Below are positions 29,040-63,520 of a DNA stretch of 64,000 bases, piece by piece (the stretch's first letter is position 1; every line of letters starts with the position of its first letter). A program made the position numbers and the translations under genes. A model generated the notes under the pieces. The model worked only from the letters and a program-made list of their open reading frames with translations, made no database searches and had not been told where the DNA came from. The DNA comes from Nitrospinia bacterium (GTDB taxonomy: Bacteria > Nitrospinota > Nitrospinia > Nitrospinales > JAJDAT01): the NCBI GenBank assembly GCA_029261715.1, contig JAJDAT010000001.1, positions 186,001 through 250,000 on the forward strand, given 5' to 3'.

Positions 29040-30344
29040 ATGAAAAAAAGTATCGGACAACTATCGCTCGGATTGATATTCGCTCTTGGCACAGCTTTTG
29101 TGTTGGGTGTGGGTATCATGTGGGGAATTGGAAGCTTATTGATCAATATTCAAGAACGTAAGGCTGAAGCAAAAATTCCATTTCAAAAACTTGTAGAAAT
29201 CAATCAAGACGAGCTGGACCCTGCTGTTTGGGGAAAAAACTTTCCTCATCAATACGATAGTTTTATAAAAACTCAAGACGATTCTCAAGGAACCCCCTTC
29301 GGCGGTTCTGTCCTTTATAGCAAGTTAGATAAAACTCCAGCATTAATCCGATTATGGGCAGGATACGCATTTAGTAAAGATCATAACGAAGACCGCGGCC
29401 ACCATTATGCGATGATCGACCAAAAGAATACCCAAAGGGTCAAACTCGTCAGTCAACCCGGCGCCTGCGCCAATTGTCACTCTGCCGAAACGCCACAACT
29501 AATCAAGGCCATGGGTTGGGAGGCATTTAATCGAACTCCTTTTAACGATCTTAAAGATAAAATGCATCTAGGATCGTCCTGCGCCGATTGCCACGACCCC
29601 AAAACCATGGAATTACGCATAACTCGCCCTGCATTTAAAAATGCAATGGAACTTAGAGGAGTAGACCTTGCCAAAGCGACGCGTCAAGAAATGCGGAGTT
29701 ACGTTTGCGCTCAGTGCCATGTGGAATATTATTTTGCCGGCAAGGATAAAGTTCTAACATTCCCGTGGACAAACGGTTTTTCCGTGGAGAATATTGAAAC
29801 TTACTATGACGACATAGAGTTTAAAGATTGGACGCACAAAGAAACCAAAGCTCCTATGATAAAAGTTCAACATCCGGAATTCGAATTATGGAACTCAAGT
29901 CTTCACGCAAAATCTGGCGTCTCCTGCTCAGATTGTCACATGCCCTACATGAGAAAAGGCGCAGTTAAAGTTTCCGATCATTGGTTGCGAAGCCCGTTGA
30001 CCAATATAAACAGAGCTTGCCAAACCTGCCATAAAGCAGATGAGGATTCCCTTCGCGATCGAGTTATAACAATTCAAAATCGAACGGCAACATTATTGAA
30101 AGTCACCGAAGAGTCTTTATTGGAAGCCATAGATTCTATTGTCGACGCTCAAAAAGCTGGAGTTTCTGATGAAAAATTGAACGCAGCCAGAAAATTACAC
30201 AGAAAAGGCTCCATTCGATGGGATTTTATTTCTTCCGAGAACAGTACAGGCTTCCATAGTCCGCAAGAGTCGGCCAGAGTTTTAGCAAACGCGGTAAACT
30301 TTGCGCGTAAAGCTCAAATATCAGCGATAAATGCAAAAAAATAA
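29040..30344 (+). CDS. nrfA: Ammonia-forming cytochrome c nitrite reductase (NrfA), CXXCH-type catalytic haem
   Basis: 434 residues with an N-terminal signal/anchor. Five haem motifs in order: CANCH, CADCH, CAQCH, CSDCH and CQTCH. Active-site residues of NrfA are present: Tyr in CAQCHVEYYF, and Lys/His in IKVQHPEFELW. In E. coli-type NrfA the first (catalytic) motif is CXXCK with Lys as proximal ligand; here it is CXXCH, the variant reported in some bacteria. Located in the periplasm, bound to NrfH; reduces nitrite to ammonium with six electrons. No accessory haem lyase (NrfEFG) is in the window, consistent with the CXXCH form not needing one. Confidence 0.95.
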   Translation: MKKSIGQLSLGLIFALGTAFVLGVGIMWGIGSLLINIQERKAEAKIPFQKLVEINQDELDPAVWGKNFPHQYDSFIKTQDDSQGTPFGGSVLYSKLDKTPALIRLWAGYAFSKDHNEDRGHHYAMIDQKNTQRVKLVSQPGACANCHSAETPQLIKAMGWEAFNRTPFNDLKDKMHLGSSCADCHDPKTMELRITRPAFKNAMELRGVDLAKATRQEMRSYVCAQCHVEYYFAGKDKVLTFPWTNGFSVENIETYYDDIEFKDWTHKETKAPMIKVQHPEFELWNSSLHAKSGVSCSDCHMPYMRKGAVKVSDHWLRSPLTNINRACQTCHKADEDSLRDRVITIQNRTATLLKVTEESLLEAIDSIVDAQKAGVSDEKLNAARKLHRKGSIRWDFISSENSTGFHSPQESARVLANAVNFARKAQISAINAKK

Positions 30345-44195: not shown

Positions 44196-46265
44196 ATGGA
44201 AATTAAATCTGCTACAAAACTATTAAAGGAATTTTCAGTTCTTTCCAGTTTAGAAGAACTTCATATAGAAAAATTGTGTGAATCTTCCGGTTTTGTCTAT
44301 TTAAATGGAGGGGAACTTCTCTTTAAAGAAGGTGATCCAGGAAACGCTATGTTCATTGTTTTAGATGGATTGCTGGAAGTTTACACAAAAAACAAAATAA
44401 TTGCCGAACGCGGTCCATATAGTTTGATTGGTGAAATGGCTCTAATAAACTCCCAACCAAGATCCGCAAACATAAAAGCTTCCATCCCCACTAGCCTCAT
44501 AGAAATTTCGAAAGAAAACTTCAATAATTTTATAGCGCCGCATTCAAGTGTCATTCTAGAAATCATGAAAACCTTGTCGGAAAGAAGTCGTTCCGACCTC
44601 AATACTTTAGACCACGGCTATGGAGAGCTCCATAGGTCTCAAGAAAATTATGAAGACATTGTCAAATCCGTATCCGATATTATTTTAAGAGTTTCTTCAA
44701 ATGGCCTTATCACCTATTCAAATTCATCGGTTGGTTTATTAGGCTATACACCGAGCGATATAATAGGTCGTCCAATAAGCGATTTCATTGTCAATGAAAA
44801 CAAACAAGAAGTACAAGACCAGCTCATTACAAAACGCATTGGCGCCAGAGCGACAAAAGACCTCGAAGTTTGGCTTAAAGTTAACGATGACTTCTTATTT
44901 CCAGGCGGATTTAGAAAATTGCTATTTCTAGTGGACTCCACAGGTTTGTGGGACGTCTCAAATAAAGTCGTGAAGCAAAAAACCACGGAAAAAAAGTTTA
45001 TAGGATGTCAATTAGTAGCTAGAGAAATAACCTTAAGAAAAAAAGCCGAAGAAGAAATATTTGAGAACGCCCTTCATCAGGAAGAATTGGTAAGAATCAG
45101 AACCAGAGAATTAGAAAAAGCAAAAGAAGAAGCCGAAAAAGCCAACCAAGCTAAGTCTGAGTTTTTAGCTAGAATGAGCCACGAGCTGAGAACCCCAATG
45201 AACTCAATTTTGGGTTTCACTCAACTTTTGAGAGGAGAAGCAAAGAAAAATAACGACGACCCTCAACTTAAAGACCTCGATCAAATTCTAAACTCAGGCT
45301 ACCATTTATTGGACTTAATCAATGAGGTTTTGGATCTTTCAAAAGTTGAAACTGGCCATGTCAATATTTCTTTAGAACCGATCAATCTATTTGATCTAAA
45401 AAATGAAGTCTTTAATTTATCAAAACCCATCTCAATGGAAAACGGGGTCGAGTTATTAGACAATCCAACTGCCAATCCGTCCATCCATGTCTTGGCAGAC
45501 AGGATTCATTTAAAACAAGTTTTAATAAATTTAATTACCAACGCCATAAAATATAACCAAAAGCATGGACAAGTAACGATAGATTATTTTCTAAAAAATA
45601 AAGACCAAATTGTCATAAAAGTTTCAGATACTGGACGCGGCATTCCAAAAGATAAATATAAGGAAGTGTTTTTACCTTTTGAGAGATTGGGAATAGAATC
45701 GTCTGAAATTTCAGGCACCGGAATCGGCCTCACTATTTCAAAACGCCTAGTCGAATTAATGGACGGAGTTATTTATTTCGAAAGCGTTTTAGGAGAAGGA
45801 ACTAACTTTTTCGTTGAATTACCAGTGGCGCAAGAACAACCCACTGAATCAGATGACAAACCCGGCAATCCAGACTTCTCTGACCGCGAAGTAGGATCAA
45901 AAGAAAAAGTTATTTTGTACGTTGAAGATAACCTGGCAAACTTGAATTTGGTCAAACGGATACTTGCAAGTAGAGAAAGCACAACCTTTTTACCGGCGTT
46001 AACGGCTATAGAAGGTCTTAGGCTGGCTCACACACATCAACCAGACCTCATCTTAATGGACATCAACCTTCCTGGAATGAATGGCATTGAAGCTTTTAAA
46101 AAATTACAAGAGTCTGAAAAAACTAAAAACATACCAGTACTCGCCGTAAGCGCAGACGCTATGGAAGAAGACCAAGAAAAAGCCAAAGCGTTAGGATTCA
46201 AAAACTATATCACCAAACCCATAGACGTTCCCCTCTTTGTAGATTTAATAGAAAAATACCTTTAA
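44196..46265 (+). CDS. cNMP-binding-PAS-HisKA-HATPase-REC hybrid histidine kinase
   Basis: 689 residues. CRP-type cyclic-nucleotide-binding domain (about 10-130) with the phosphate-binding cassette [18 protein letters not shown] containing the Glu and Arg-Ser contacts for cyclic nucleotide phosphate. PAS domain (about 150-285) with an unusual segment on LEVWLKVN and [10 protein letters not shown], coiled coil, His[14 protein letters not shown], HATPase_c LITNAIKYN / DTGRGIP / GTGIGLT, and C-terminal REC ([23 protein letters not shown]). Soluble. A kinase whose activity is probably tuned by cAMP. Paralogue at 48251; the predicted adenylate cyclase is 15 kb away. Confidence 0.92.
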
Positions 46266-48250: not shown

Positions 48251-50338
48251 ATGGATACCAATTCTGCAGTAACAATATTAAAAGACTTTTCAGTTCTTGG
48301 CGACTTAGACAAATATGCATTAAAAAAACTCTGCGATGTTTCCCCATTAGTTCAATTAAATAAAGAAGAACTTCTATTCAAAGAAGGCGACCCAGGTGAG
48401 ACAATGTACATTGTTTTAGAAGGGACGCTCGAAGTTTTCACAAACAACAAACTCATTGCCCAACGCGGCTGTTACAGCATGGTCGGGGAAATGGGGCTTA
48501 TAAATTCCCAACCTAGATCTGCAAATATAAAAGCTATCACCCCTTCCTGTTTATTAGAAATCTCTAAAGAAAGTTTCAAAACTTTTATAGCTCCCAATCC
48601 AGGTGTCGTTTTAGAAATCATGAAGACTCTGTCGGAAAGAAGCCGTTCAGATTTAAATATTCTAGATCAAAGCGTCAGCGACCTTCAGAAGTCTCAAGAA
48701 AACTTTGAAGACATTGTCAAATCAGTATCAGACATCATTATAAGAATTTCTCCGGATGAAATTATCACTTACGTAAACTCATCCATAAATATATTGGGCT
48801 ATATGCCTGAAGACGTTATAGGAAAGTCAATAAGAGCTTTTTTAGACGAAGAAAATAAAAAAGAAACGCTCGAAAAACTAATAACCCAACGCATTGGTTT
48901 AAGAGCAACCAAAGATTTAGAAGTCTGGTTTAAAGTTAACGAAGGTTTTTTATTTCCCGGCGGTTTTAAGAAACTGCTTTTTTTAGTGGACTCAACAGGC
49001 CTATGGGATGTTTCAAACGATATTGTAAAGCAGACATCTACAGAAAAAATATGCCTGGGATGCCAACTAATCGCTCGGGAAATCACCTTGAGAAAAAAAG
49101 CCGAGGACGCAGTTTTTGAAAACGCTATTTGGCTGGAAGAACTAGTTAATACCAGAACAAAAGAACTTGAAGAATCCAAGAAAGAAGCGATAGAAGCTAA
49201 GGAAACGGCTGAAAAAGCCAACATGGCTAAATCCAATTTTTTAACTAATATGAGTCACGAATTGCGAACTCCAATGAACTCTATTTTGGGCTTCTCGCAA
49301 ATAATGAAAAAAGAAGCAAAACAAAAAAACGATACTGACTACATATATAGTTTAGATCAAGTTCTAAAATCTGGTTACCACTTACTTGATTTGATTAATG
49401 AAGTATTAGATCTATCAAAAGTTGAATCTGGTAATTTAGAGTTTTCAATAGAAGCAGTTAATATTTCAGAGTTATTAAACGAAATTTTAGATTTATTGAA
49501 ACCAATAGCGGAAGAAAAAAAGATTCAACTCACAAAACTTACGATTGATCCCAACACCCACGTAAAAGCGGATAAAATCTATTTAAAACAGGTTTTGATA
49601 AATTTGTTCTCAAACGCCTTAAAATATAATCAAGAGAACGGAAAAGTAACCGCGAGGTGTTCTTTAGAGAAGAATGATAAAGTTCTCATAGAAATATCGG
49701 ATACTGGACGCGGCATTCCTGAAGACAAATTCCACGGCGTATTTATTCCTTTTGATAGGTTGGGACTAGAATCCGGGGAGATAGAGGGTACAGGCATTGG
49801 ACTAGCCATTACCAAACGCTTAGTTGAGCTTATGCAAGGCTCTATTTACTTTGAAAGTATTGTAGGCGAGGGAACTAGTTTTTTTGTGGAATTGGAAGCT
49901 TCTAAAGAAAAATCGACTTCTACAAAACAAACGACAAACATCCCAAGCTCAACAGAAACTCAATTGAATGTAGATGAACAAATAATCCTATATATTGAAG
50001 ATAATGAAGCAAATATAGAATTAGTTCGTAGAATATTAGGTTTTAAAAAAAATGTATTATACCTTTTTGCAGAAACGGCAAAAGAAGGTATTCAGTTAGC
50101 ATATGATCGGCAACCCCACCTTATTTTGATGGATATTAATCTTCCTGACATGGGGGGATGCGAAGCCTTCGAAAAATTACAAGAATCGGAAAAAACTAAA
50201 AACATTCCGGTATTAGCGCTCAGTGCAGACGCCATGAGTAAGGACATAAAAAACGCTATTAATTTGGGATTCAAAGACTATATCACCAAGCCAATAGACG
50301 TACCTCTTTTCATAGATTTAATCGATAGATATCTTTAA
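48251..50338 (+). CDS. cNMP-binding-PAS-HisKA-HATPase-REC hybrid histidine kinase, paralogue
   Basis: 695 residues, same architecture as the protein at 44196 and similar in every domain. Cyclic-nucleotide cassette [21 protein letters not shown] with EVWFKVN and [10 protein letters not shown]; a longer Lys/Glu/Ala coiled coil before the kinase; H-box [13 protein letters not shown]-box LFSNALKYN; DTGRGIP; GTGIGLA; REC with LYIEDN, LMDINLPDMGG and ITKPID. Probably a duplicate that has diverged in its signal linker. Expected to respond to the same cyclic nucleotide. Confidence 0.92.
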   Translation: MDTNSAVTILKDFSVLGDLDKYALKKLCDVSPLVQLNKEELLFKEGDPGETMYIVLEGTLEVFTNNKLIAQRGCYSMVGEMGLINSQPRSANIKAITPSCLLEISKESFKTFIAPNPGVVLEIMKTLSERSRSDLNILDQSVSDLQKSQENFEDIVKSVSDIIIRISPDEIITYVNSSINILGYMPEDVIGKSIRAFLDEENKKETLEKLITQRIGLRATKDLEVWFKVNEGFLFPGGFKKLLFLVDSTGLWDVSNDIVKQTSTEKICLGCQLIAREITLRKKAEDAVFENAIWLEELVNTRTKELEESKKEAIEAKETAEKANMAKSNFLTNMSHELRTPMNSILGFSQIMKKEAKQKNDTDYIYSLDQVLKSGYHLLDLINEVLDLSKVESGNLEFSIEAVNISELLNEILDLLKPIAEEKKIQLTKLTIDPNTHVKADKIYLKQVLINLFSNALKYNQENGKVTARCSLEKNDKVLIEISDTGRGIPEDKFHGVFIPFDRLGLESGEIEGTGIGLAITKRLVELMQGSIYFESIVGEGTSFFVELEASKEKSTSTKQTTNIPSSTETQLNVDEQIILYIEDNEANIELVRRILGFKKNVLYLFAETAKEGIQLAYDRQPHLILMDINLPDMGGCEAFEKLQESEKTKNIPVLALSADAMSKDIKNAINLGFKDYITKPIDVPLFIDLIDRYL

Positions 50339-50766: not shown

Positions 50767-52866
50767 ATGGATAAAATTTCCATAATGCAACATTTAAAAA
50801 AAGTCGATTTTTTAAAGGACCTTCCAGGTTTGGAAAGTTTGGCCGAAAATTGCCAAGCCACCAACCTCTTTCCTAACGACTTTCTATTTAAAGAAGGCGA
50901 AACAGGCGAATCCATGTTCATTATTACAGAGGGTTGTCTTGAGGTGATTAAAGAAAATCGCACCATCGCCTTACGCGCAGAAGGGGAATATATTGGGGAA
51001 ATGGCCCTCTTAGGTAATCAAACACGTTCCGCTTCCATAAAAGCAACTTCTAACGTTAAAGCGATAGAAATCAAAGAAAATGTTTTTAAAAGTTTTCTAA
51101 TATCCAATCCCGAAGCGTTACTCCCTTTAGTCAAAACTTTAGCCCTACGTTCAAAACAAGAGTTAGAAATTTTAGCTTCAGATAACCGCGAATTAGAAAC
51201 TCAAAAAAAGATTAATAAAAGATTCAATCGAATCTTAGACGATACCGTCAACGAAATTTATATATTAGATCCAGATACCTATAAAGTTATAAGAGCTAAT
51301 TTAAAAGCCTCTACCAACCTTGGTTATCCCTTAAACAAATTTGGAAATTTCTTTTTTAACGGCTTATTTTCCGATTTCACATGGGATGAGCTCAACGCTC
51401 ATATCCAAACACTTTTAAATAACGAGCAAGCCCAAGCTTCTTTTGCCGGACAACTCAAAAGAAAAGACGGCTCAACCTACCCTGTCGAAGTTCGTATTCA
51501 ATACTTAGATACTGAAGAGCCCGCGCAATTTTTCGCTATCGTAGAAGATATTACCGAGCGAAAAACAATGGAAGATCATATCAAACAACTCGCTTTTTAC
51601 GACACATTGACAGATCTTCCAAATCGTAATTTGCTAAAGGACCGGATGCAAGTCATGTTGGAGCACGCTAAGCGATATGACAAAAAATTCGCCGCCCTTT
51701 ATATGGACATGGATAACTTCAAAGCGGTTAACGACGCTTTAGGTCACGATGCTGGCGATCAATTTTTAAAATCGGTTACAAAACGCCTAAAAGAATGTCT
51801 TAGAAAAGAAGATACTCTCGGTCGTATGAGTGGCGATGAGTTCATTATTTTACTTCCAAATCTTAATGATGAAAAAGACGCCTCAAATTTGGCTCAAAAA
51901 ATAAACTCGATAATGGAATCTCCTTTCTTGATCGCAAATAAAGAAATTTTTTCAAATTTTAGCATTGGGGTTTCTTACTATCCAGACGACGGAAATGATA
52001 TCGCCACTCTTCTCAAAAATGCCGATATCGCCATGTATCGCGCCAAAGAAGTGGGAGGACACACCTATCAGTTGTTCACCGAATCGATGAACGAAAAGAT
52101 CAATAAACGTATGACCATGGAGCAAAACCTCCGCCAAGCTCTGGATAATGACGAATTGAAATTGTATTACCAGCCTAAAGTCGATGAAAAGGGAACGCTT
52201 TCAAGTTTAGAAGCGCTCATTCGCTGGCCCCAGCCGGAAGGAAAAATGATATCGCCCGGAGTGTTCATTCCCATTGCGGAAGAAAGCCGAATCATAGGTC
52301 TTATAGGCAAATGGGTGATTATAGAAGCCTGCAAACAAATTCAAGAATGGAAAACTAAATTTGGACGTTCCATAAAAGTTGCCGTAAACGTTTCGGGCAA
52401 ACAATTCGAACAAACTGATTTAGTCAAAGACATAAAAGAAGTGCTAGAAACAGCGAAAATAGACCCTTCGCTTTTAGAAGTGGAAGTTACAGAAACCGCT
52501 ATGATGAGAGATATTGACTCTGTTATAAGCGTTCTCGATAAACTAAAAGAATTTGGAGTTCAATCGTCCATAGACGATTTTGGTTCGGGTTATACGTCCT
52601 TAGGATATTTAAAGAAATTTCCGGTTCACTCTTTAAAAATAGACCAATCGTTTATTCACGGTTTTAAAGATAAAAGCAATCAAGCCATCATCGAAGGAAT
52701 TATCACTATTTGTAAAGTAATGGGCTTGGAAGTGGTTGCCGAAGGGGTCGAAACCGAAGAACAACTAGAATACTTAAAAACATTAAAGTGCGATATATAT
52801 CAAGGTTACTTATTTTATAAACCGCTACCAGCGGATGAAGTTGCGAAACAGTTTTTTCAGAATTAA
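50767..52866 (+). CDS. cNMP-binding-PAS-GGDEF-EAL cyclic-di-GMP protein
   Basis: 699 residues. CRP-type cNMP domain (about 8-125; cassette IGEMALLGNQTRSASIKA), PAS (about 150-265), GGDEF domain (about 275-435) with active site SGDEF in place of GGDEF and an RxxD inhibitory site (RKED) five residues upstream, then an EAL domain (about 445-695) with LEALIRW, VNVSGKQF, VEVTETAM, IDDFGSGYTSL, LKID and VAEGVETEEQ all intact. The EAL side looks fully competent as phosphodiesterase; SGDEF variants can still be cyclases. A protein linking cyclic nucleotide input to c-di-GMP turnover. Confidence 0.94.
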   Translation: MDKISIMQHLKKVDFLKDLPGLESLAENCQATNLFPNDFLFKEGETGESMFIITEGCLEVIKENRTIALRAEGEYIGEMALLGNQTRSASIKATSNVKAIEIKENVFKSFLISNPEALLPLVKTLALRSKQELEILASDNRELETQKKINKRFNRILDDTVNEIYILDPDTYKVIRANLKASTNLGYPLNKFGNFFFNGLFSDFTWDELNAHIQTLLNNEQAQASFAGQLKRKDGSTYPVEVRIQYLDTEEPAQFFAIVEDITERKTMEDHIKQLAFYDTLTDLPNRNLLKDRMQVMLEHAKRYDKKFAALYMDMDNFKAVNDALGHDAGDQFLKSVTKRLKECLRKEDTLGRMSGDEFIILLPNLNDEKDASNLAQKINSIMESPFLIANKEIFSNFSIGVSYYPDDGNDIATLLKNADIAMYRAKEVGGHTYQLFTESMNEKINKRMTMEQNLRQALDNDELKLYYQPKVDEKGTLSSLEALIRWPQPEGKMISPGVFIPIAEESRIIGLIGKWVIIEACKQIQEWKTKFGRSIKVAVNVSGKQFEQTDLVKDIKEVLETAKIDPSLLEVEVTETAMMRDIDSVISVLDKLKEFGVQSSIDDFGSGYTSLGYLKKFPVHSLKIDQSFIHGFKDKSNQAIIEGIITICKVMGLEVVAEGVETEEQLEYLKTLKCDIYQGYLFYKPLPADEVAKQFFQN

Positions 52867-53042: not shown

Positions 53043-54821
53043 ATGGCAATGTTTAATTTACTTCGTCTTTCGATGTGGGGAATAGCTTCCCTACTATTAG
53101 CGCTTTCGCCAATCAGCGCAGCCGCTCAAGAACAAGTCAGTCGTGGAGAATTTGTCAAAATTTTCTCGGATTCTCAACCGACCAATCCATACCTGCCTAA
53201 AAACCATAAACAACTTTCTAAAGATCAACTTTATTCCGAAACGGTTAAAACGCTAAATGAACGCGGCATTAAAGTATTAAACGGTAAAAACTCAGGCGAG
53301 CCCATGAGCAACTTGGAGTTCGTCCGCGTATCCTACGCCCTAACCGGCGCGCCATTAGGAAAATCGTTATACGAACAAAAACGATACTTAAAAGAAAAAG
53401 GACTTTTAGAAACCGCGGACATAGGTCTAACCACCGGGTTGGACGGACAAGCCTTTCAATTTCATAAAGGCGATTCCGCTCCCTATAAAGTTCAACTAGC
53501 AAGCCCCGTATATTTAAACGATAAAGTTGAAACCGAAGACGAGGCCAATATTTCCTTCACCTTTGATGACCAAAGCACCCTTACCTTAGGCGAAGACGCA
53601 CAAGTAAGAATCACTAAACACGTATACAACCCAGATAACGGGCTCCGCCAAACCGTCGTCAACGTTACCTCCGGCATGGTTCGTTTTGTGATCTCAAAAG
53701 CTAAAGGCAAAGGATCAATGTTTAAGGTAGTCACTCCAACGGCGACTGCGGGAGTACTAGGGACCGAATTTGTTACCGTTGTAGAATCGGACGGTCAAAC
53801 TCAATTTGTAGGTATCGAAAATCAAATTGAAGTCACTCCAATACTGCCAGATGGTACCGAAGGCGTTAAACAAATCGTAGCCGCAGGTCAGATGCGGTCA
53901 ATCGCAAAAAACGGAGTAGCAACGGCAGTAACTCAAGCTCCTCCAGGATTGATAACTTCTATGCAAGCTAAAACCTCAACGCCTCAAAAAGTTAATCCAA
54001 ATCGACCTGTAACTCCGCAAAAAGCGCAATCCGCAGCAAAAAGTAATTGGATCACACAAGCGGCATTAACGAACATTAACCCAGTCAATCAAGGCGGCGC
54101 AAATGGGTTAGGCGCCACTAAGTCTGCAGCGGCAAAAACAAAAGTAAATCCAAGTAAAGGGCAAAATAAAGGCAAAGCTAAGATTGCAAGCCTTGGTGGA
54201 AAACCTGGAAAAGGCGCAAACAAAGGAGCCGCTAAAGCAGCGAAGGGAGCGGCTAAAAATGCCGCTAAAGGAGCCGCAAAAGCAGTCGCTAAAAAAACCG
54301 CAAAAGGCATGGCTAAAACGGCGGCTAAATCTTCCACAAAGAAAGCGACAAAAAAAGTAGCTAAAAAAGCCACAAAAAATGCGATTAAGGTAGCCGCTGC
54401 ATCGGCAGCAAAAGCGTCATCTACTGAATCGGCTCAAGAAGCCGCCAAATCAGTCGCTACTCAAGTTGCGCGAGAACAAGTCACAACCATCGCGGCAGAA
54501 GAAGCCCAAGCGGCGTCAACGACAGCAATCCTGGCTTCTAATGGAGCGGGCAAATCCGAATTTGCCCCTGGACTGTCAAGTAACCCAGGTAACTCCGGAA
54601 ACGCTCCCGGACAATCAGGTAGTTCTCCAGGTAACTCCGGAAATGCTCCCGGACAATCAGGCAGTTCACCTGGAAACTCTGGCAGTTCACCTGGAAACTC
54701 TGGAAGCTCACCTGGAAACTCAGGCAGTTCTCCAGGAAACTCTGGTGGTTCAAGTGATTCAGGTGGATCCAATGGTAACTCTGGTGGGAATGGTAACTCT
54801 GGAGGTAAAGGGAAGAAATAA
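53043..54821 (+). CDS. FecR-domain exported protein with Lys/Ala-rich and SPGNSG-repeat tail
   Basis: 592 residues, GGGGG 4-5 nt before the ATG. Signal peptide 1-28 (SAAAQE cleavage region), an N-terminal conserved region (about 30-130), and a FecR domain (about 135-280) with EANISFTFDDQSTLTLGE, VNVTSGMVRFVI and TPTATAGVLGTEF. After residue 330 the sequence changes to low complexity: Lys/Ala repeats of the histone-H1/AlgP kind (KGAAKNAAKGAAK), an acidic/Ala spacer, then seven heptads of the SSPGNSG type and a Gly/Asn end. Exported to the periplasm or surface. A close paralogue follows at 55028. The tail may bind polyanions such as LPS or DNA; inference. Confidence 0.87.
   Translation: MAMFNLLRLSMWGIASLLLALSPISAAAQEQVSRGEFVKIFSDSQPTNPYLPKNHKQLSKDQLYSETVKTLNERGIKVLNGKNSGEPMSNLEFVRVSYALTGAPLGKSLYEQKRYLKEKGLLETADIGLTTGLDGQAFQFHKGDSAPYKVQLASPVYLNDKVETEDEANISFTFDDQSTLTLGEDAQVRITKHVYNPDNGLRQTVVNVTSGMVRFVISKAKGKGSMFKVVTPTATAGVLGTEFVTVVESDGQTQFVGIENQIEVTPILPDGTEGVKQIVAAGQMRSIAKNGVATAVTQAPPGLITSMQAKTSTPQKVNPNRPVTPQKAQSAAKSNWITQAALTNINPVNQGGANGLGATKSAAAKTKVNPSKGQNKGKAKIASLGGKPGKGANKGAAKAAKGAAKNAAKGAAKAVAKKTAKGMAKTAAKSSTKKATKKVAKKATKNAIKVAAASAAKASSTESAQEAAKSVATQVAREQVTTIAAEEAQAASTTAILASNGAGKSEFAPGLSSNPGNSGNAPGQSGSSPGNSGNAPGQSGSSPGNSGSSPGNSGSSPGNSGSSPGNSGGSSDSGGSNGNSGGNGNSGGKGKK
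54576..54746 (+). repeat. 21-nt in-frame tandem repeats (SSPGNSG) in the first FecR gene
   Basis: Eight heptad-scale units encoding NPGNSG/NAPGQSG/SSPGNSG. Adjacent units are nearly identical in DNA (for example AGTTCACCTGGAAACTCTGG), so slippage can change their number without breaking the frame. Confidence 0.85.
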
Positions 54822-54917
54822 TTCCACCTTCAAACTATTAAGACATATGGTAATATCTATGTATTCATATTCCCGAAATTTTAAGTAGTTTTATTTTACA
54901 TAACACGTACGTAATAT

Positions 54918-54953
54918 CCTTCAGGCAAAAGCTTTTTTGCCTGAAGGCTTTTT
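54918..54953 (+). terminator. Rho-independent terminator of the first FecR gene
   Basis: 13-bp perfect stem CCTTCAGGCAAAA / TTTTGCCTGAAGG with a 4-nt loop, followed by CTTTTTT. Strong, well formed, about 100 nt after the stop. Confidence 0.88.
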
Positions 54954-55027
54954 TCCAAAAACGACCGATTACAAATTTTATTTCCAAAGTAAATGAAGTT
55001 TCTCTAAGATGGGGAGAGAGCTAAAAA

Positions 55028-56785
55028 ATGGCGACTCGCAGATTGATTAGACAATTTACACTAGCAATTATTTTTCTTTTAATAGCTTTTACGCCACCGT
55101 CGGCAATGTCTCAAGATCAAATCAATCGTGGACAGTTTGTCAAAATCTTTTCGGATTCTCAGCCAACAAATCCGTTCCTTCCCAAAAACCATAAAAAACT
55201 CTCCAAAGACCAGCTTTATTCCCAAACAGTCAAAAAACTAAACGAACGCGGCATCAAGGTACTAAACAATAAAAAAGCCGACGAGCCCATGAGCAATTTG
55301 GAATTCGTCCGCGTATCTTATGCTTTATCCGGCGCTCCTTTAGGAAAATCTTTGTACGAGCAAAAACGATACTTAAAAGAAAAAGGACTTTTAGAAACAG
55401 CCGATATTGGTTTAACTACCGGTTTAGACGGCCAAGCCTTTTTATTCCATAAAGGCGACCAGGCGGCATATAAAGTTCAGTTAGCCAGCCCTGTTTATTT
55501 AAACGACAAAGTCGAAACCGAAGAAGAAGCCAATATTTCCTTCACCTTCGACGATCAAAGTACTCTCACATTAGGCGAAGACGCAGAAGTAAGAATTACC
55601 AAGCACGTTTACAATCCCGATAGCGGACTCCGCCAAACTGTCGTCAACGTAACGTCAGGTATGGTGCGTTTTGTCGTTTCCAAAGCCAAAGGTAAAGGAT
55701 CGATGTTTAAGGTAGTCACTCCAACGGCGACTGCGGGAGTGCTCGGAACAGAATTTGTTACCGTTGTAGAGCCAAACGGTCAAACTCAATTTGTCGGTAT
55801 TGAAAACCAAATTGAAGTCACTCCAATTCTACCAGACGGTACCGAGGGCGTTAAACAAATCGTTGCCGCCGGTCAAATGCGATCTATCGCTCAAAATGGA
55901 GTAGCGACCCAGGTAACACAAGCGCCCCCAGGACTGATAAATAATTTTAAAGCTCAAACTTCGACACCGCAAAAAGTAAATCCAAACCAACCGGTAACGC
56001 CACAAAAAGCTCAATCTGCCGCAAAAAGTGCCTGGATTACGCAAGCGGCTTTAACAAATGTTGACGCTAACTCGACCCAAGCTTCAGCTGGTGGATTAGG
56101 AGCAACTAAATCCGCAACGGCAAAAGCCAAAGTAAAACCAGGAAAAGGTCCAGCTAAAACCGCGGGTCTTGTTAAACCTGGGAAGGGTAAAAGCAAAATA
56201 GCAGGTCTTGGTAAACCAGGAAAAGGTCCAGGTAAAGCCGCAGGTCTTGGTAAGCCAGAAAAGGGTCCAGGCAAAATCGCAGGTCTTGGTAACCCAGGAA
56301 AAGGAGCCGCTAAAGGCGCGGCAAAAAATGCCGCGAAAAGCGCTGCGAAAAATGCGGCAAAAGCCGTCGCTAAAAGAACCGCCAAAGGAGTAGCCAAAAC
56401 GGCGGCTAAATCAGCTGCAAAAAGTTCAGCCCAAAAAGCAACGGATAGAATAGCTAAAAAAGCATCTAAAAGCGCCATTAAAGCAGCAGCAAAAGCAGCC
56501 GTAGCAAGCGCAACGGCAGAAGCCGCGCAAGAAGCTGCGACCGAAGTGGCTTCTCAAGTCGCTAGAGAACAAGTTACTGTCATCGCTCAAGCTGTAGCTG
56601 CAGAAAATTCCAATGCTAATGGAAATAGCTCTAGCAGTAACGGTAATAGCTCTAGCAGTAATGGAAACAGTAGTAGCAGCAGTAGCAGCAGCAGTAGCAG
56701 TAGCAGCAGTAGCAGCAGCAGTAGCAGCAGCAGTAGCAGCAGCAGTAATGGAAATTCTAATGGGAATAAAAATGGAAATAGCTAA
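55028..56785 (+). CDS. FecR-domain exported protein, paralogue with poly-Ser tail
   Basis: 585 residues; signal peptide 1-29, then a region almost identical to the first FecR protein through about residue 335, including FDDQSTLTLGEDAEVRITK and TATAGVLGTEFVTVVE. The tail differs: four 13-residue KPGKGPGKxAGLG units, Lys/Ala H1-like repeats, an Ala/Glu helix, and a run of 26 serines within an NGNS-rich end. Thus the FecR part is held constant while the tail diverges by repeat expansion. Own promoter likely, as a strong terminator precedes it. No sigma-factor or TonB receptor gene nearby, so it is not a classic FecIR regulator. Confidence 0.87.
   Translation: MATRRLIRQFTLAIIFLLIAFTPPSAMSQDQINRGQFVKIFSDSQPTNPFLPKNHKKLSKDQLYSQTVKKLNERGIKVLNNKKADEPMSNLEFVRVSYALSGAPLGKSLYEQKRYLKEKGLLETADIGLTTGLDGQAFLFHKGDQAAYKVQLASPVYLNDKVETEEEANISFTFDDQSTLTLGEDAEVRITKHVYNPDSGLRQTVVNVTSGMVRFVVSKAKGKGSMFKVVTPTATAGVLGTEFVTVVEPNGQTQFVGIENQIEVTPILPDGTEGVKQIVAAGQMRSIAQNGVATQVTQAPPGLINNFKAQTSTPQKVNPNQPVTPQKAQSAAKSAWITQAALTNVDANSTQASAGGLGATKSATAKAKVKPGKGPAKTAGLVKPGKGKSKIAGLGKPGKGPGKAAGLGKPEKGPGKIAGLGNPGKGAAKGAAKNAAKSAAKNAAKAVAKRTAKGVAKTAAKSAAKSSAQKATDRIAKKASKSAIKAAAKAAVASATAEAAQEAATEVASQVAREQVTVIAQAVAAENSNANGNSSSSNGNSSSSNGNSSSSSSSSSSSSSSSSSSSSSSSSSSNGNSNGNKNGNS
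56135..56290 (+). repeat. 39-nt tandem repeats (13-residue Lys/Gly/Pro units)
   Basis: Four in-frame units starting KPGKG or KPEKG and ending AGL(G/V), encoding a strongly basic segment of the second FecR protein. Confidence 0.85.
56669..56746 (+). repeat. AGC/AGT trinucleotide tract encoding 26 serines
   Basis: Pure run of AGC and AGT codons. In-frame length variation by slippage is expected. The opposite strand shows open frames that are artefacts of this composition. Confidence 0.9.
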
Positions 56786-56899
56786 AATCAAGCCATTGAA
56801 TTTCACCCAAAATAGTTTAAATTTTAATAAACTTATGGTAATATCAACGTACTCATAAAATTTAAGTAATTTCGCTTCAACCTAGCGCTTAAGTTACAC

Positions 56900-56928
56900 C
56901 TTTTAGATGAATAGCTTTCGTCTAAAAG
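56900..56928 (+). terminator. Hairpin after the second FecR gene
   Basis: 12-bp stem CTTTTAGATGAA / TTCGTCTAAAAG (one G-T pair) with loop TAGCT, 18 nt before the next ATG. The T tract is weak (CTTTACC), so it may be a leaky terminator or a 5' control element for the TPR-porin gene. Confidence 0.55.
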
Positions 56929-56946
56929 CTTTACCAAATCGAACGG

Positions 56947-58611
56947 ATGCGATTTTTATCACTAAAACTAGCGTTAAAGCTTATTCCGCTCTCTCTAATC
57001 CTTTCGATTTTTCTAGTTCATCCCCACTCTGCTATCGCAAATACATCCTCTCCCTTAACAAATCTTAAAAACACATTTAAAAATTTCTTTTCTAAACCAA
57101 TAAAGCAAATCGCTGTTTATTTAGTAGCTCAAAATAACGCCGCCCAAAAACCAGTTGTAGAACCTACACAAAAAATAGAACAAAAAACTGAACTGGCAGA
57201 ACAGCAGCCTGAAGGTGATTTTGAAACCGGATTAAAACTTTTTCAAGACGACAAATACGCTAAAGCTCTTTTAGAATTTCAAAAGATTATTGATTCAGAC
57301 ACCAACAATGCAGAAGCCACTTACTTTTTAGGCCTAACCTATTTCAAACTGGAAAATCACGATAAAGCAATTCCCTTATTTGAAAAAACGCTTGAATTGG
57401 ATCCTACTTTTAATGAGTCTTATTTAAGTTTAGGAATCTCCTATTACAAAACTAAATCATACGACTTAGCGTTAAACGCACTGGATAAAGCAATAGCAGC
57501 TAATCCCAAAGACGCCTCGTCTCATTTTTTTAAAGGACTGACCCTACATGCTCTAGAGAAATATCAAGACTCTCTCTTCTCATTCAATCAGGCAAAAACT
57601 TTAGACTCTGAGTTCAGACAACTCGCTCTTTTTTACAAAGCCTTAGGTTATTACAAATTAGGCCAAGTTGATTACGCCAAAGAATTATTTAAACGCACCG
57701 CCGGTTTTGATCCAAAGTCGGACACGGCCAAAGATGCTAATCAATTTATCGATATCATCAAACAGCAACAAGCAAGCGGAGCTAATAAAGACTGGTACGC
57801 TAACTTAAGCGCAGGATATGAATGGAACGACAATATCTCTCGTTCCGAACAAGATATTGTGAGTAATATAGCGGATAGAATTTATATTTTCCAAGCAAGC
57901 GGAAATTATACTTTTTTTAAAAGGAAAAGCTTTGAATTAGAGGCCGGATACAATTTTTATCAAAGTATCTATGACGAAGCTAAAGAATTTAACTATCAAG
58001 CTCACACCGGAAACCTTTCCGCTTCCTACGGATTAAAGGATTGGGATTTGCGTCTGGATTCTTCTTACACATACAGTACCTTGGACAAATTATCTTTTCT
58101 AGGTATCGAAACGCTTTCTCCTGCAATCGGACATTCTTTTCATCCCAAGCAATATATAAACGCTAGCTATAGTTTTCAGCGTAAAAAGTTTTTCACCGAT
58201 TCAAATCGCGATGGCATGAACCACTCAATCGGTTTTCTAAATTTTATATTTTTTTGGGACAATAAGGCATTTTGGTCGCAAGGTTATCGCTTTTCGGATG
58301 AAAACACTCGCGACTCTCAATTCGATTACGCAAACCACCATACTGACACAACCATAAAAATCCCCGGCCCTTTTGAAAGCGCTATTCGGTTTTACTTTGC
58401 GTTTTTTTTACGGGACTATAAAAATATTACGGAAAGTATCAACAGCGAACGGAAAGACGACAGACAGACCTTTCAAGTTAGCTACTATCAACCACTTTAT
58501 AAAAAACTTTATTTGGATGCTAACTATAGACACATTGAAGCCAAATCAAATGTATCGTCTGTAGACTTTAAGGAAAATTCTGGTTTTGTAAGCCTGGGAA
58601 TTAATTTTTAG
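56947..58611 (+). CDS. TPR protein with C-terminal outer-membrane beta-barrel
   Basis: 554 residues. Signal peptide at about 1-32 (HSAIANT), a linker, five to six TPR units (about 75-275; AEATYFLGLTYFKLENHDKAI and similar), then about 265 residues of alternating strands with many aromatic ends (YANLSAGYEWNDNIS, FELEAGYNFY) and a terminal Phe in VSLGINF, the BAM recognition end of outer-membrane proteins. The barrel likely sits in the outer membrane with TPRs in the periplasm. Position after two FecR genes suggests it scaffolds or secretes them; inference. Confidence 0.85.
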   Translation: MRFLSLKLALKLIPLSLILSIFLVHPHSAIANTSSPLTNLKNTFKNFFSKPIKQIAVYLVAQNNAAQKPVVEPTQKIEQKTELAEQQPEGDFETGLKLFQDDKYAKALLEFQKIIDSDTNNAEATYFLGLTYFKLENHDKAIPLFEKTLELDPTFNESYLSLGISYYKTKSYDLALNALDKAIAANPKDASSHFFKGLTLHALEKYQDSLFSFNQAKTLDSEFRQLALFYKALGYYKLGQVDYAKELFKRTAGFDPKSDTAKDANQFIDIIKQQQASGANKDWYANLSAGYEWNDNISRSEQDIVSNIADRIYIFQASGNYTFFKRKSFELEAGYNFYQSIYDEAKEFNYQAHTGNLSASYGLKDWDLRLDSSYTYSTLDKLSFLGIETLSPAIGHSFHPKQYINASYSFQRKKFFTDSNRDGMNHSIGFLNFIFFWDNKAFWSQGYRFSDENTRDSQFDYANHHTDTTIKIPGPFESAIRFYFAFFLRDYKNITESINSERKDDRQTFQVSYYQPLYKKLYLDANYRHIEAKSNVSSVDFKENSGFVSLGINF

Positions 58612-58637
58612 GTTTGTTTTAATTTGGTGGGATTTAA

Positions 58638-59159
58638 CTAGTTGTTAGAGTGGAAACCTTGAAGCATTTTATAAGTGAATTCGACGATATGTTTGAGACG
58701 TTTTACTGACTTTTTTTGATTTTTTAATTCTTCATTATCTTGATCCAAAGTTTTTAAATCAGTTCGCGATCGATTGGAAAGAGTTTTTAATAAACTGAAG
58801 ACAACTTCCTTCTGTGGAGTCAAGAATTTCTCAAACTGTGAACGCTGCATTTCTAAAAAGCAAGAATCGACAACGGCTTTAGCCGAAGCGGAACGAGGCT
58901 TGGTTTCTATAAGAGCCATCTCTCCAATATATTCGCCCTGTCCTCTATTAGCGATGGTTTTATTTTGCACATAAACCAATAATTCACCCGAAAGAATAAA
59001 ATACATGCAATCTCCTTCGCTTCCCTCTTCAAATATAATGTCATTAGCTTTTACTTCTTTTATTTCGCACTCGGAAGCCAGATCCGCTAAAACATCGTCG
59101 GGCAATAAACTCAACAAATCGACTTCTTTCAGCATTTGGAAAATTCCGTCCGAATTCAT
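58638..59159 (-). CDS. Stand-alone cNMP-binding domain protein
   Basis: 173 residues consisting of one CRP-type cyclic-nucleotide-binding domain (about 10-130) and a short C-terminal helix (KNQKKSVKRLKHIVEFTYK). Cassette IGEMALIETKPRSASAKA keeps the Glu and Arg-Ser expected for cAMP/cGMP contact. There is no HTH, so it is not a CRP regulator. Divergent from the CHASE2 cyclase gene (96-bp gap), which makes it a likely direct sensor or buffer of the nucleotide made there. Confidence 0.9.
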   Translation of the reverse strand: MNSDGIFQMLKEVDLLSLLPDDVLADLASECEIKEVKANDIIFEEGSEGDCMYFILSGELLVYVQNKTIANRGQGEYIGEMALIETKPRSASAKAVVDSCFLEMQRSQFEKFLTPQKEVVFSLLKTLSNRSRTDLKTLDQDNEELKNQKKSVKRLKHIVEFTYKMLQGFHSNN

Positions 59160-59255
59160 TCAAAACTCCCTGATTGGATTACACGCTGGTTTTCATTATA
59201 AAGAGTCTAATGAATAATATCGCCACAGTCAATTTATCGGAACTCTTGGCATAAC

Positions 59256-61535
59256 ATGGAATCTTTCAATAAAAAAACGTGTTGGGTATTATCTGCAATC
59301 ATCATCGTTCTTTCCTTATTAACTTCTAAGATTGATCCAACAATACTGCACACTTTTGAACTTATTTTTCAAGACGCTCACTTTAAATGGCGTGGTCCCA
59401 TCTCCCCCGGACCAGAAGTCGTCATCGCCGCTATTGACGAAAAAAGCATTGACGACCTGGGACGCTGGCCCTGGTCCAGAAAAACCATGGCAAACCTGGT
59501 CGACAAATTAGTCGAATCAGAAGCTAAGATAATTGGATTTGACGTAGTCTTCTCTTCTCCCGAAAACTTTCCGCAAAAAAAGCTAATAGAAAATCTGGAA
59601 AACAAACTTAAAAAAAATAAAATCGACTTTCAAAATATCGAAGAACAACTACAAGAAATCAAAAACGAACCACACCCAGACGAACTATTTGCAAAAGCGC
59701 TGCGAACTTCAAATAGAACGGTTACAGGTTATTTTCTCAGTCATAACCAGGCAGAATCAAAATTAATCGACGAAGAAGTGCAAAAGCAAAGTTTAAAAAA
59801 CATTAAACCCTCGCGATTCAGAGGATTCTTAAAATCAAATGCCGAGTTGGACTTAAACACCCTGCCCTTTCGAACCGTTTACGGCATCGAGGCAAATATA
59901 GAAGCGCTTTCAAAAAAATATAAAAAAGCGGGTTTTCTAAGTTTTGATGTAGAGCCAGATGGCACAATTCGCCAACTACCGCTTGTCGTTCGTTCTCACA
60001 GAAAATTAAAAGGAAAGTCTCTATTCTTTCCTCCTTTTTCCATGAGAATTTTGGAAAACTATTTGGACGGAACCATGCTGTTTAAGGTCAACCCTATGGG
60101 TGTGGAAAAGGTTTTAATTGACGCGGAAGATCCCATCGTAATACCGGTTAACGACCAGGGAGCGTTAAGCGTTAATTATTTAGGACCACAAAGAACATTT
60201 CCTCGCTATTCCATATCAGAAATTTTGAATGACTCTAATAGCGCCCTATCCTCACAGCTAAAAGATAAAATTGTTTTGATTGGAGCGACTGCAAAAGGAC
60301 TTTTAGATATAAGAAAGACTCCATTCGACCCGGTCATGCCAGGGATTGAAGTACACGCTACTATCATAGACAACATACTTCGGCGAAACTTTATTTACGA
60401 ACCCGATTGGGCAGAGCTTGTTGAGATATTATTCCTTATCCTCATTGGGATTGTCTCTACATTAGTCTATATCAATATCAAACCCGCTCAAGCTCCATTA
60501 TTTTGGATAGGTATTTCAGCATCCTTATTTGGAATCAATCATTGGTTTTTCACAAATAAAGGATTCTGGCTTTCAAATTTATACCCACAGTTGGAACATC
60601 TTTTAATTTCCGCTTCTTTGATGGTTTACCGTTACACATCCGATGAAAAACAGAAGCAATATATACGCGGTATTTTCGGCCAATACGTCACTCCAAAAGT
60701 AATCGACAACCTGATAGAAAATCCCGACGATCTAAAATTAGGAGGAGAAGAAAGGGAATTAACAGCTTACTTCTCCGATATCGCAGGTTTCTCAACCATC
60801 GCGGAAAAACTGACGCCCACGCAATTTGTTTCTTATTTAAACGAATATCTTTCTGAGATGACAGAGATCTTGCTTAAGCACGATGGAACTTTGGATAAAT
60901 ATGACGGCGACGCCATCAAAGCGTTCTTTGGAGCCCCGGTCTATTTTGAAAACCACGCCAAGCGTGCCTGTTGGGTAGGTATTGAAATGCAAGAAAGGTT
61001 AAAGGAGTTGCGCGTTGAATGGGACAAAGTAGGAAAACCGGAATTTCAGACACGTATCGGTATCAATACTGGAGACATGGTTATTGGTAACTTCGGTTCC
61101 GAAAAAAGGATGAACTACGGCATGAACGGAGACTCCGTAAATCTTGCCGCACGATTAGAAGGCGTCAACAAACAATACCGAACGCAAAGCATCATCAGCC
61201 AATCGACTTATGAGCAAGCAAAAGATTTTATAGAAGTTCGCGAGTTAGACCGCATTCAAGTTGTAGGACGAAAAATCCCTGTGGTCATTTACGAATTGAT
61301 AGCGAAAAAGGGAGAACTCAGCGAAAACTTTAAAAAGATATTGCCCGTTTTTAATCAAGGATTAGAAAGTTATAAAAATCAACAGTGGCAGGAAGCGATG
61401 GATCACTTCAATCAAGTTTTGGAGATAGACCCTGATGACGGTCCCGCATTAACTTACTTGGAACGTTGCCTCCACTTTGCCAACGATCCACCGTCAAAAG
61501 ATTGGAACGGAGTCTTCACCCTAACTAAGAAATAA
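59256..61535 (+). CDS. CHASE2-domain class III adenylate cyclase with C-terminal TPR
   Basis: 759 residues. N-terminal membrane anchor, CHASE2 extracytoplasmic domain (about 28-385; DAHFKWRGP, AAIDEKSIDDLGRWPW, GFDVVFSSP, GATAKGLLDIRKTPFDPVMPGIEVHA in pieces), three membrane helices (about 388-470), a short IFGQYVTPKVI linker, and a cyclase domain (about 505-690). Metal Asp residues lie in YFSDIAGFS and KYDGDAIKAFFGAP; the Lys in LDKYDGD and the Asp in GDSVNLAARLE are the adenine-specifying pair; Asn/Arg in NLAARL complete the site. A TPR unit closes the protein. Predicted product cAMP. Confidence 0.93.
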   Translation: MESFNKKTCWVLSAIIIVLSLLTSKIDPTILHTFELIFQDAHFKWRGPISPGPEVVIAAIDEKSIDDLGRWPWSRKTMANLVDKLVESEAKIIGFDVVFSSPENFPQKKLIENLENKLKKNKIDFQNIEEQLQEIKNEPHPDELFAKALRTSNRTVTGYFLSHNQAESKLIDEEVQKQSLKNIKPSRFRGFLKSNAELDLNTLPFRTVYGIEANIEALSKKYKKAGFLSFDVEPDGTIRQLPLVVRSHRKLKGKSLFFPPFSMRILENYLDGTMLFKVNPMGVEKVLIDAEDPIVIPVNDQGALSVNYLGPQRTFPRYSISEILNDSNSALSSQLKDKIVLIGATAKGLLDIRKTPFDPVMPGIEVHATIIDNILRRNFIYEPDWAELVEILFLILIGIVSTLVYINIKPAQAPLFWIGISASLFGINHWFFTNKGFWLSNLYPQLEHLLISASLMVYRYTSDEKQKQYIRGIFGQYVTPKVIDNLIENPDDLKLGGEERELTAYFSDIAGFSTIAEKLTPTQFVSYLNEYLSEMTEILLKHDGTLDKYDGDAIKAFFGAPVYFENHAKRACWVGIEMQERLKELRVEWDKVGKPEFQTRIGINTGDMVIGNFGSEKRMNYGMNGDSVNLAARLEGVNKQYRTQSIISQSTYEQAKDFIEVRELDRIQVVGRKIPVVIYELIAKKGELSENFKKILPVFNQGLESYKNQQWQEAMDHFNQVLEIDPDDGPALTYLERCLHFANDPPSKDWNGVFTLTKK

Positions 61536-61999: not shown

Positions 62000-62029
62000 G
62001 TGGTCGCCCTTCGAGAACCTCAGGGTGAC
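62000..62029 (-). repeat. Family B repeat, right inverted copy
   Basis: GTGGTCGCCCTTCGAGAACC then TCAGGGTGAC; 29 of 30 nt match the reverse complement of the left copies. A GTG in it extends the next frame artificially. Confidence 0.9.
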
Positions 62030-62038
62030 ATTTTATAT

Positions 62039-63520
62039 ATGCACCCCATAATCAAAAAAACATTCGAAATTGACATCAGAGCCTTGGCCCTCTTTCGCAT
62101 TGGATTTGGGATTATATTATTCTGGGATTTAGCGATTAGAGCAGTCGATTTAGAAAACCACTACACCGATTTTGGCGTTTTAAATAGAAGCGAAGCCTTC
62201 AAAATATTAGACGACTACGCCTTTTCCATACATCTTGCAAACGGAACCCTATTCTTCCAAGCCATTTTATTCATCCTATCCTTTATTTTTGTCATTGGCC
62301 TTATAACTGGGTACAAAACTCGCTTATCCATAATAATTAGTTGGTTCCTTCTGTTATCTCTGCAAAATAGAAACAACATGCTTTTAAACGGCGCCGATGG
62401 ATTGAAAATCATTTTACTATTTTGGTCCGCCTTCCTACCCTTAGGCGCGCACTATTCAATAGATTCCATGTCTAACCAAAACTCTACGAATAAAAACGAT
62501 ACCCATCTTTCATTAGCTGGAGCAGGCTTGCTAATAATGAGCGTAGCCATTTTCTTTTTTGCAGTTTTTTATAAAAATGGCGATGAATGGTACCCAGATG
62601 GAACCGCTCTTTACTATGCGCTACATATAGGATCAAACGTCACTCATTTGGGGGTCTGGTTTCGCCAATTTGATTTCATCCTACAATGGGGATCGTATGC
62701 CACATTAGTCTTAGAGTTTTTTGGACCTATCCTAATTTTCATCACGTGTTGGAACTATACAATTCGCTTAATCATGATTGGAATATTTATTTTATTTCAA
62801 TCAAGCATTGCACTATTCCTGGCTATTGGAACTTATCCGTTCATAAACTTATTAACGCCTCTCCTATTTATTCCAAAGCAATATTGGGATATTTTTGAAA
62901 CCAATTCCCTATTTATTAAGATTTCACATGGATTAAACACAACGTTTTCCAAGTTTAAATTCTTTACAGAAGCTTCAACAGAAAAAGAAAATCCGCTCAA
63001 CGCTAAACTTACCGATCGATTTTCATTTCTTATTTTAATTTTCTTAATTATTTGGAATATCACCGAGCTACCGCAAATAAATTATAAGGCGCCAAGATTA
63101 ATTGGTAACACCTTAACGTTTTTTGGGTTGAACCAAAATTGGAATATGTATGGGCCAAGACCTCATGACCATAGCGGCTGGTATCTCATTTCTGGTAAGC
63201 TAATGGATGGAAGCGAAGTAGACGTTACAAAGCGAAAAAAAGGAAAGACGGACTTTTCACGCCCACAATACCTTGTCGATACCTACCTTAGCGAAAGGTG
63301 GAGAAAGTATTTAGACCAGACACGGTTCCGCTACGATTCGCAACGGCAATTACTAAATTACGGAAGGTTCATTTGTCGGTCATGGAATCGCGGAAAACCT
63401 GAGAACGAAAAATTAGGGACTTTCAAAATCCATTTCATGTGGGAAAAAACATTACTCAATTACAAAAAAGCCGAGATCATAGACGAAATCCTCTGGCATC
63501 ACGACTGTTTTGCTCCTTGA
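62039..63520 (+). CDS. HTTM-domain membrane protein (vitamin K-dependent carboxylase-like)
   Basis: 493 residues from the ATG at 62039; the in-frame GTG at 62000 is inside the repeat. The HTTM domain (about 10-300) opens IDIRALALFRIGFGIILFWDL and has several membrane helices plus the loop NRNNMLLNGADGL, characteristic of bacterial relatives of the gamma-glutamyl carboxylase family. The C-terminal about 140 residues are soluble (MYGPRPHDHSGWYL, WHHDCF). Bacterial HTTM proteins lack a proven function; some may be epoxidases or carboxylases. Stands alone after the GIY-YIG unit. Confidence 0.83.
   Translation: MHPIIKKTFEIDIRALALFRIGFGIILFWDLAIRAVDLENHYTDFGVLNRSEAFKILDDYAFSIHLANGTLFFQAILFILSFIFVIGLITGYKTRLSIIISWFLLLSLQNRNNMLLNGADGLKIILLFWSAFLPLGAHYSIDSMSNQNSTNKNDTHLSLAGAGLLIMSVAIFFFAVFYKNGDEWYPDGTALYYALHIGSNVTHLGVWFRQFDFILQWGSYATLVLEFFGPILIFITCWNYTIRLIMIGIFILFQSSIALFLAIGTYPFINLLTPLLFIPKQYWDIFETNSLFIKISHGLNTTFSKFKFFTEASTEKENPLNAKLTDRFSFLILIFLIIWNITELPQINYKAPRLIGNTLTFFGLNQNWNMYGPRPHDHSGWYLISGKLMDGSEVDVTKRKKGKTDFSRPQYLVDTYLSERWRKYLDQTRFRYDSQRQLLNYGRFICRSWNRGKPENEKLGTFKIHFMWEKTLLNYKKAEIIDEILWHHDCFAP

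Follow-up and report, generated by a model that had tools for sequence, protein, structure and literature searches.

What do FecR proteins do in a locus that encodes neither a FecI sigma factor nor a TonB receptor? This question is raised by a 64,000-nucleotide stretch of a Nitrospinia bacterium (contig JAJDAT010000001.1, positions 186,001 to 250,000; hereafter the window), contained in a 5.3 Mb genome, in which two FecR proteins are encoded next to a protein combining tetratricopeptide repeats (TPRs) with a beta-barrel, a cyclic-nucleotide-binding (cNMP) protein and a nucleotide cyclase carrying a CHASE2 sensor domain. Among named genomes, the FecR twins have their nearest relatives in Nitrospinota metagenome-assembled genomes. 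The original prediction, made from the letters of the window, grouped positions 53043–61535 as an envelope-sensing module and suggested that CHASE2 might sense the FecR proteins as ligands or as matrix proteins. Here we argue that the locus rather probably encodes a trans-envelope signalling relay, leading from the barrel through FecR and the CHASE2 cyclase to a cyclic nucleotide and a cyclic di-GMP (c-di-GMP) enzyme. Such a relay would be a split form of the type represented by NsrA, the published receptor for the CHASE2 adenylate cyclase CyaK in the plant symbiont Sinorhizobium meliloti (PMC7529298, PMC13001267).

The genes of the window were defined from a list of open reading frames and a Pfam scan that took in the genes at 48–63.5 kb, and the FecR twins, the TPR-barrel, the cNMP protein and the cyclase were found where they had been predicted. 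FecR1 (592 aa; 53043–54821, plus strand; Pfam FecR, E 1e-13) and FecR2 (585 aa; 55028–56785, plus strand; E 9e-14) share an architecture of signal peptide, helical N-domain, FecR domain and basic low-complexity tail; they are 91% identical across the 263 residues of the N-domain and FecR domain, whereas their tails differ. They are followed by the TPR-barrel protein (554 aa; 56947–58611, plus strand; Pfam TPR, E 1e-22), ending in -GINF, by the stand-alone cNMP-binding protein (173 aa; 58638–59159, minus strand; E 8e-20) and by the CHASE2-class III cyclase-TPR protein (759 aa; 59256–61535, plus strand; CHASE2, E 7e-62; cyclase, E 8e-23), a predicted inner-membrane receptor cyclase. The predicted gene set is therefore real, but its left boundary has to be moved: since the gene directly upstream of fecR1 (50767–52866, plus strand) recurs in relatives, the conserved unit begins one gene earlier, at about 50767. 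This gene encodes a cNMP-PAS-GGDEF-EAL protein (699 aa; all four domains matched in Pfam), the presumed output enzyme, in which a cyclic nucleotide would control the turnover of c-di-GMP.

To assess the conservation of this neighbourhood, the 263-residue FecR1 core was searched against 100 relatives, and CHASE2 and TPR-barrel searches were run on the same genomes. Close FecR orthologues occurred in 25 genomes of the same order, including that of the window, and a CHASE2 gene was located within 10 kb of 28 of their 33 orthologous FecR genes, where 0.49 would be expected. Several of the five exceptions lie near contig ends. CHASE2 itself was present in every one of the 25 FecR-positive Nitrospinales genomes, compared with 16 of the 39 others (Fisher p 4e-7). 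When 20 loci from this search were mapped, along with loci from a search of named genomes, a recurring unit emerged: the cNMP-PAS-GGDEF-EAL gene, which immediately precedes FecR in most Nitrospinota loci, then one or two copies of FecR and the TPR-barrel. The cyclase gene is divergent in most cases and lies downstream in the window and one relative (G007). Additionally, a cNMP-LuxR protein (Pfam-checked in one case) was present in six of the first 20 mapped loci, and a cNMP-histidine kinase in three. The envelope-sensing type of neighbourhood is thus conserved in Nitrospinota, and the FecR-CHASE2 co-occurrence across genomes that the original prediction had proposed to look for was found. The FecR-CHASE2 link itself has been published (PMC9239204, PMC5192318), and no paper in the collection searched names Nitrospina together with FecR.

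The pairs into which the unit falls in other genomes have FecR as their common member. A TPR-barrel gene stands directly upstream of FecR, with no CHASE2 in the locus, in six distant loci from several other phyla that were found solely by their FecR domain (L092, L094, L098, L099, L101 and L137). Conversely, FecR accompanies a CHASE2-cyclase without an adjoining TPR-barrel in five Nitrospinota loci (L052, L073, L080, L083 and L090). The full row, in the order TPR-barrel, FecR, CHASE2-cyclase, occurs in Paracoccus and in Shinella, the latter with a cNMP gene further on. Moreover, NsrA unites a FecR domain (residues 66–160) and TPRs (378–587) in one polypeptide, and its gene overlaps cyaK. Pairs lacking the third member, the order of the row and the NsrA fusion are the arrangements that a chain from barrel to FecR to CHASE2 predicts.

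The architecture of the twins is consistent with such a middle position. An AlphaFold2 (AF2) model of FecR1 (24 sequences; mean predicted local distance difference test (pLDDT) score 78) comprises a helical domain (residues 34–118), a beta domain (128–312, the fold extending over 124–314) and a disordered tail. Residues 157–314 of the model superpose on PupR 111–251 with a Z score of 17.3 and a root-mean-square deviation of 2.7 over 140 residues, unrelated matches scoring 5 and below, so that the FecR domain, as modelled, folds in the manner of the first, juxta-membrane half of the PupR periplasmic domain. The helical N-domain of the twins (about 30–120), barely covered by the fold searches, had no Pfam match, and a search for viral relatives of it gave none. 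The receiver domain of PupR, whose fold the FecR domain shares, takes signals from an outer-membrane barrel (PMC7186176). This fold, the sharing of FecR between the two pairs and its fusion to a TPR-barrel in NsrA are better explained by a relay in the periplasm than by a matrix protein or a diffusible ligand, and on this point we depart from the original prediction. Its companion claim, that the twins are not anti-sigma factors, holds: Pfam (in which FecR is the sole domain matched), sequence and model indicate a signal peptide but neither an anti-sigma domain nor a transmembrane helix, there is no N-terminal cytoplasmic domain, and no sigma factor gene lies nearby.

At the inner membrane, hydrophobic segments at residues 8–26 and 388–406 lie on either side of the CHASE2 domain of the cyclase. 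Its catalytic motifs (FSDIAGF, DKYDGDAIKAFFG and GDSVNLAARLE) include both metal-binding Asp residues and the Asn/Arg transition-state residues, and a TPR-like stretch follows at the C-terminus; judged by these motifs, the protein is a class III nucleotide cyclase with a membrane-flanked CHASE2 sensor. Candidate readers of its product are encoded next to it. The cNMP-PAS-GGDEF-EAL protein carries the canonical phosphate-binding cassette GEMALLGNQTRSA and the stand-alone cNMP protein the cassette GEMALIETKPRSA; canonical cassettes, close to that of Bd1971, occur in four proteins of the window. Bd1971 of Bdellovibrio is a cNMP-EAL phosphodiesterase activated by cAMP, with the cassette GEMALIDNQNRSA (PMC6717892). 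Both enzymes combine an N-terminal cNMP domain of nearly the same cassette with a C-terminal EAL domain, whereas PAS and GGDEF domains are additional in the window protein. Upstream of the unit, the window also encodes two similar cNMP-PAS-histidine kinase-receiver proteins with canonical cNMP cassettes (44196–46265 and 48251–50338), possible extra readers of the cyclase product.

From the observed gene content, conserved neighbourhood and catalytic motifs and the predicted domain folds, we infer the protein-protein contacts, the signal, the direction of its effect and the nucleotide of the following scheme. The TPR-barrel would be embedded in the outer membrane, its TPR array facing the periplasm, and would respond either to a cue from outside or to its state of occupancy. 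The periplasmic FecR twins, through their PupR-like beta domain, would carry the state of the barrel across the periplasm; the basic tails of the twins may bind to the acidic barrel or be threaded into it. The FecR domain would then contact the periplasmic CHASE2 domain directly and set the activity of the cyclase, whose product (cAMP or cGMP) would bind to cNMP domains encoded by neighbouring genes, primarily that of the cNMP-PAS-GGDEF-EAL protein. As a result, c-di-GMP levels would change; in relatives, cNMP-LuxR regulators or cNMP-histidine kinases would be further targets. We favour this relay because the neighbourhood is conserved, FecR is the common member, NsrA presents the fusion, the predicted fold resembles PupR, Paracoccus has the genes in a row and Bd1971 provides a precedent for the output.

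Several observations weigh against this scheme. In G031, a near-complete chromosome and a genuine exception among the five, the FecR and CHASE2 genes are 120 kb apart; within the order, no CHASE2 lies near 20 of the 38 FecR genes that are more distant; and the window's own genome has five other CHASE2 genes and four other FecR genes, which are unlinked. Furthermore, the twins lack the STN half (the FecR1 model is a disordered tail beyond residue 312), which in PupR spans residues 250–324 and is needed to bind the barrel partner (PMC7186176), so any contact between FecR and the barrel must differ from that of PupR. Finally, cAMP is not a certain product of the cyclase, because the adenine-specifying position opposite the Lys (DKYDGD) is occupied by an unusual Gly (NYGMNGD; within window positions 60696–61295) instead of Asp or Thr. 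This Gly is common to most relatives, and in some relatives Arg replaces the Lys.

The nature of the barrel bears on the foremost alternative, that the locus serves export. The AF2 model of the TPR-barrel protein (21 sequences; mean pLDDT 83.6, above 90 across most of the folded part) consists of TPR helices at residues 92–276 followed by 14 strands at 283–553, and the C-terminus is that of a typical outer-membrane strand; a periplasmic TPR array on a 14-stranded outer-membrane barrel is therefore predicted. The closest fold matches of the barrel were CymA (Z 22.5) and OmpG (Z 21.1). A sequence search of solved structures with the TPR-barrel alignment gave, among the matches listed, TPR proteins only, and says nothing on the barrel. 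TPRs followed by a 14-stranded barrel are also the architecture of the Slam exporters of type XI secretion. The TPR-barrel could accordingly be a Slam-like exporter with the FecR twins or their tails as cargo; the surface-exposed tails would act in adhesion or in the matrix, and the cyclase would monitor or control export instead of an outside ligand. Consistent with this proposal, the FecR equivalents of Paracoccus and Shinella, encoded beside the TPR-barrel, match the TbpB_B_D and FHBP_C barrels, which are typical domains of Slam cargo; SlipAM matches the Paracoccus barrel weakly; and the first half of the FecR1 beta fold matches the cell-surface anchoring domain of MpAFP (5ix9, Z 10.3). In another Nitrospinota genome, moreover, a second FecR-CHASE2-cyclase cluster (L066:4167-12151) has a ShlB/FhaC exporter and its TPS-secreted protein in place of the TPR-barrel. 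In the window itself, however, the barrel had no SlipAM (PF04575) match at an E threshold of 10 (a setting at which few matches weaker than about 0.1 pass the HMMER filters), the twins carry neither a lipobox nor a TbpB-type domain, and the TbpB and SlipAM matches elsewhere fall below the curated cut-offs. No solved Slam structure was among the best fold matches of the TPR-barrel, which excludes nothing. We did not file the protein as a type XI exporter, its architecture fitting and its PF04575 comparison giving no match, and retain export as a rival that we consider unlikely while giving it real weight. Two clusters on alphaproteobacterial plasmids (L045:4467-10112 and L044:3873-10043) encode, in this order, a TPR-barrel, a FecR protein whose C-terminal barrel weakly matches TbpB_B_D/FHBP_C, and a CHASE2-cyclase; they resemble a type XI export system linked to a CHASE2 cyclase.

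It could also be argued that FecR and the TPR-barrel form an envelope-structural pair, with the cyclase and cNMP genes merely co-located and physically uncoupled from it. The five genes from fecR1 to the cyclase are probably not one transcript, because a strong terminator-like hairpin follows fecR1 (54918–54947, plus strand; 13 bp stem and T run) and the cNMP gene lies on the opposite strand. This hairpin was the best-scoring site of a scan in which the total count of terminator-like sites was not above that in shuffled sequences, and a promoter scan likewise gave no more sites than shuffles. Moreover, 47 of 55 distant FecR loci have no CHASE2 nearby. Against such a loose association stand the 28 linked orthologues set against 0.49 expected, the recurrence of CHASE2 within about 8 kb in the remaining eight distant loci (Nitrospirota, Bdellovibrio relatives, cyanobacteria and betaproteobacteria) and the genetic dependence of CyaK signalling on NsrA, both proteins being required for sensing the basic protein uL2 (PMC7529298). 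We accord this explanation only a slight probability. Classical FecI/FecR cell-surface signalling through a distant sigma factor, which the FecR Pfam match and the PupR-like fold might suggest, was rejected as highly improbable on the architecture of the twins (a signal peptide instead of an anti-sigma domain and transmembrane helix, and no STN half) and on genome-wide searches for sigma and Plug genes, the nearest of which lie about 75 kb (Sigma70_r2) and 200 kb (TonB Plug) away on the contig, in agreement with the original prediction that no FecI sigma factor or TonB receptor is near.

What the relay explains least well is why the low-complexity tails are basic and the outer rim of the barrel acidic. 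The FecR1 tail of about 293 residues and the FecR2 tail both have an isoelectric point (pI) of 10.7, and a basic tail (pI 9.6 to 12), rich in Lys/Ala or Gly/Asn and not conserved in sequence, was present in 18 of 20 FecR proteins. In all 16 barrel sequences checked, acidic residues outnumbered basic ones in the outer loops. Acidic outer loops are common among outer-membrane proteins, and across 13 loci the charge of the tail did not correlate significantly with that of the outer rim (rho 0.47, p 0.11); for both reasons, we put forward a tethered-ligand role of the tails solely as a hypothesis, and a rather improbable one. It would have the tails act as built-in ligands or plugs of the acidic barrel, with FecR reporting their occupancy or their displacement by an outside polycation, a polyanion or an assembly defect to CHASE2. 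If true, the system would be a sensor of cell-surface integrity or occupancy with a tethered agonist, following the charge rule proposed for NsrA and uL2, in which the outer loops of NsrA are also acidic and the receptor responds to a basic protein (PMC7529298). In two class-level relatives (L063:4084-5400 and L065:6170-7579), the FecR proteins adjoining the TPR-barrel have no low-complexity tail; their last residues form a strand-like motif with a terminal aromatic (TINVKF, KIRVEF), as is seen in outer-membrane strands.

Two further features of the window were recorded. The next gene after the module (62000–63520) encodes a membrane protein without a Pfam match, and an apparently similar protein sits between FecR and the TPR-barrel in the relative G046 (L059:4622-6076). 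Positions 28440–30344 contain two adjacent multihaem c-type cytochrome genes with many CxxCH motifs, reminiscent of the NrfH/NrfA nitrite reductase pair.

Comparison with known systems places the locus more precisely. The ligands of CHASE2, a widespread receptor domain, have been described as unknown (PMC5192318). The comparison points to a FecR-domain protein as the partner of CHASE2, linking this receptor domain to outer-membrane barrels or exporters. The relay scheme would thus unite NsrA, the Campylobacterota clusters and a Burkholderia biofilm operon, would place FecR outside sigma-factor control, and would make the question of the CHASE2 partner testable in a few proteins; it also predicts a relay from cyclic nucleotide to c-di-GMP in Nitrospinota. 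With NsrA-CyaK the window shares the FecR domain, the TPRs, the outer-membrane barrel (at residues 600–1200 of NsrA in the published prediction; PMC7529298), the acidic outer loops and the adjoining CHASE2 class III cyclase. NsrA, however, is a single protein of 1200 aa, whereas FecR and the TPR-barrel are encoded separately both here and in the relatives examined, and the window adds a duplicated FecR, basic tails and a cNMP-GGDEF-EAL gene. The Campylobacterota cluster, proposed as one pathway, comprises a CHASE2-adenylate cyclase, a phosphodiesterase, a FecR outer-membrane protein and a TPR protein (PMC9239204); CHASE2 cyclase, FecR and TPR genes likewise stand together here, but the window has cNMP effector genes, and the Pfam scan of 48–63.5 kb found no cAMP phosphodiesterase gene. 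In the BiofilmReg operon of Burkholderia, a LysM-FecR protein is encoded with a CHASE2 histidine kinase (PMC5192318), so that a periplasmic FecR-domain protein again adjoins a CHASE2 receptor, although the output is a histidine kinase, there is no barrel and LysM occupies the FecR N-terminus. In magnetotactic bacteria, the MtxA gene precedes a CHASE2 cyclase gene (PMC4439547). The FecA-FecR-FecI and PupB-PupR systems share with the window the fold of the juxta-membrane half of PupR and the logic from barrel to FecR to inner membrane; they differ in having the sigma factor, anti-sigma domain, TonB plug and STN domains that are missing here, where a cyclase provides the output. Type XI secretion (Slam, DUF560/PF04575) has in common with the window protein the predicted TPR array followed by a 14-stranded barrel, and differs in the PF04575 match, TbpB-type cargo domain and lipobox, which the window proteins lack. 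In summary, the type of sensing is already known, and to it the window adds a split, tail-bearing version with duplicated FecR, present in Nitrospinota and coupled to c-di-GMP enzymes.

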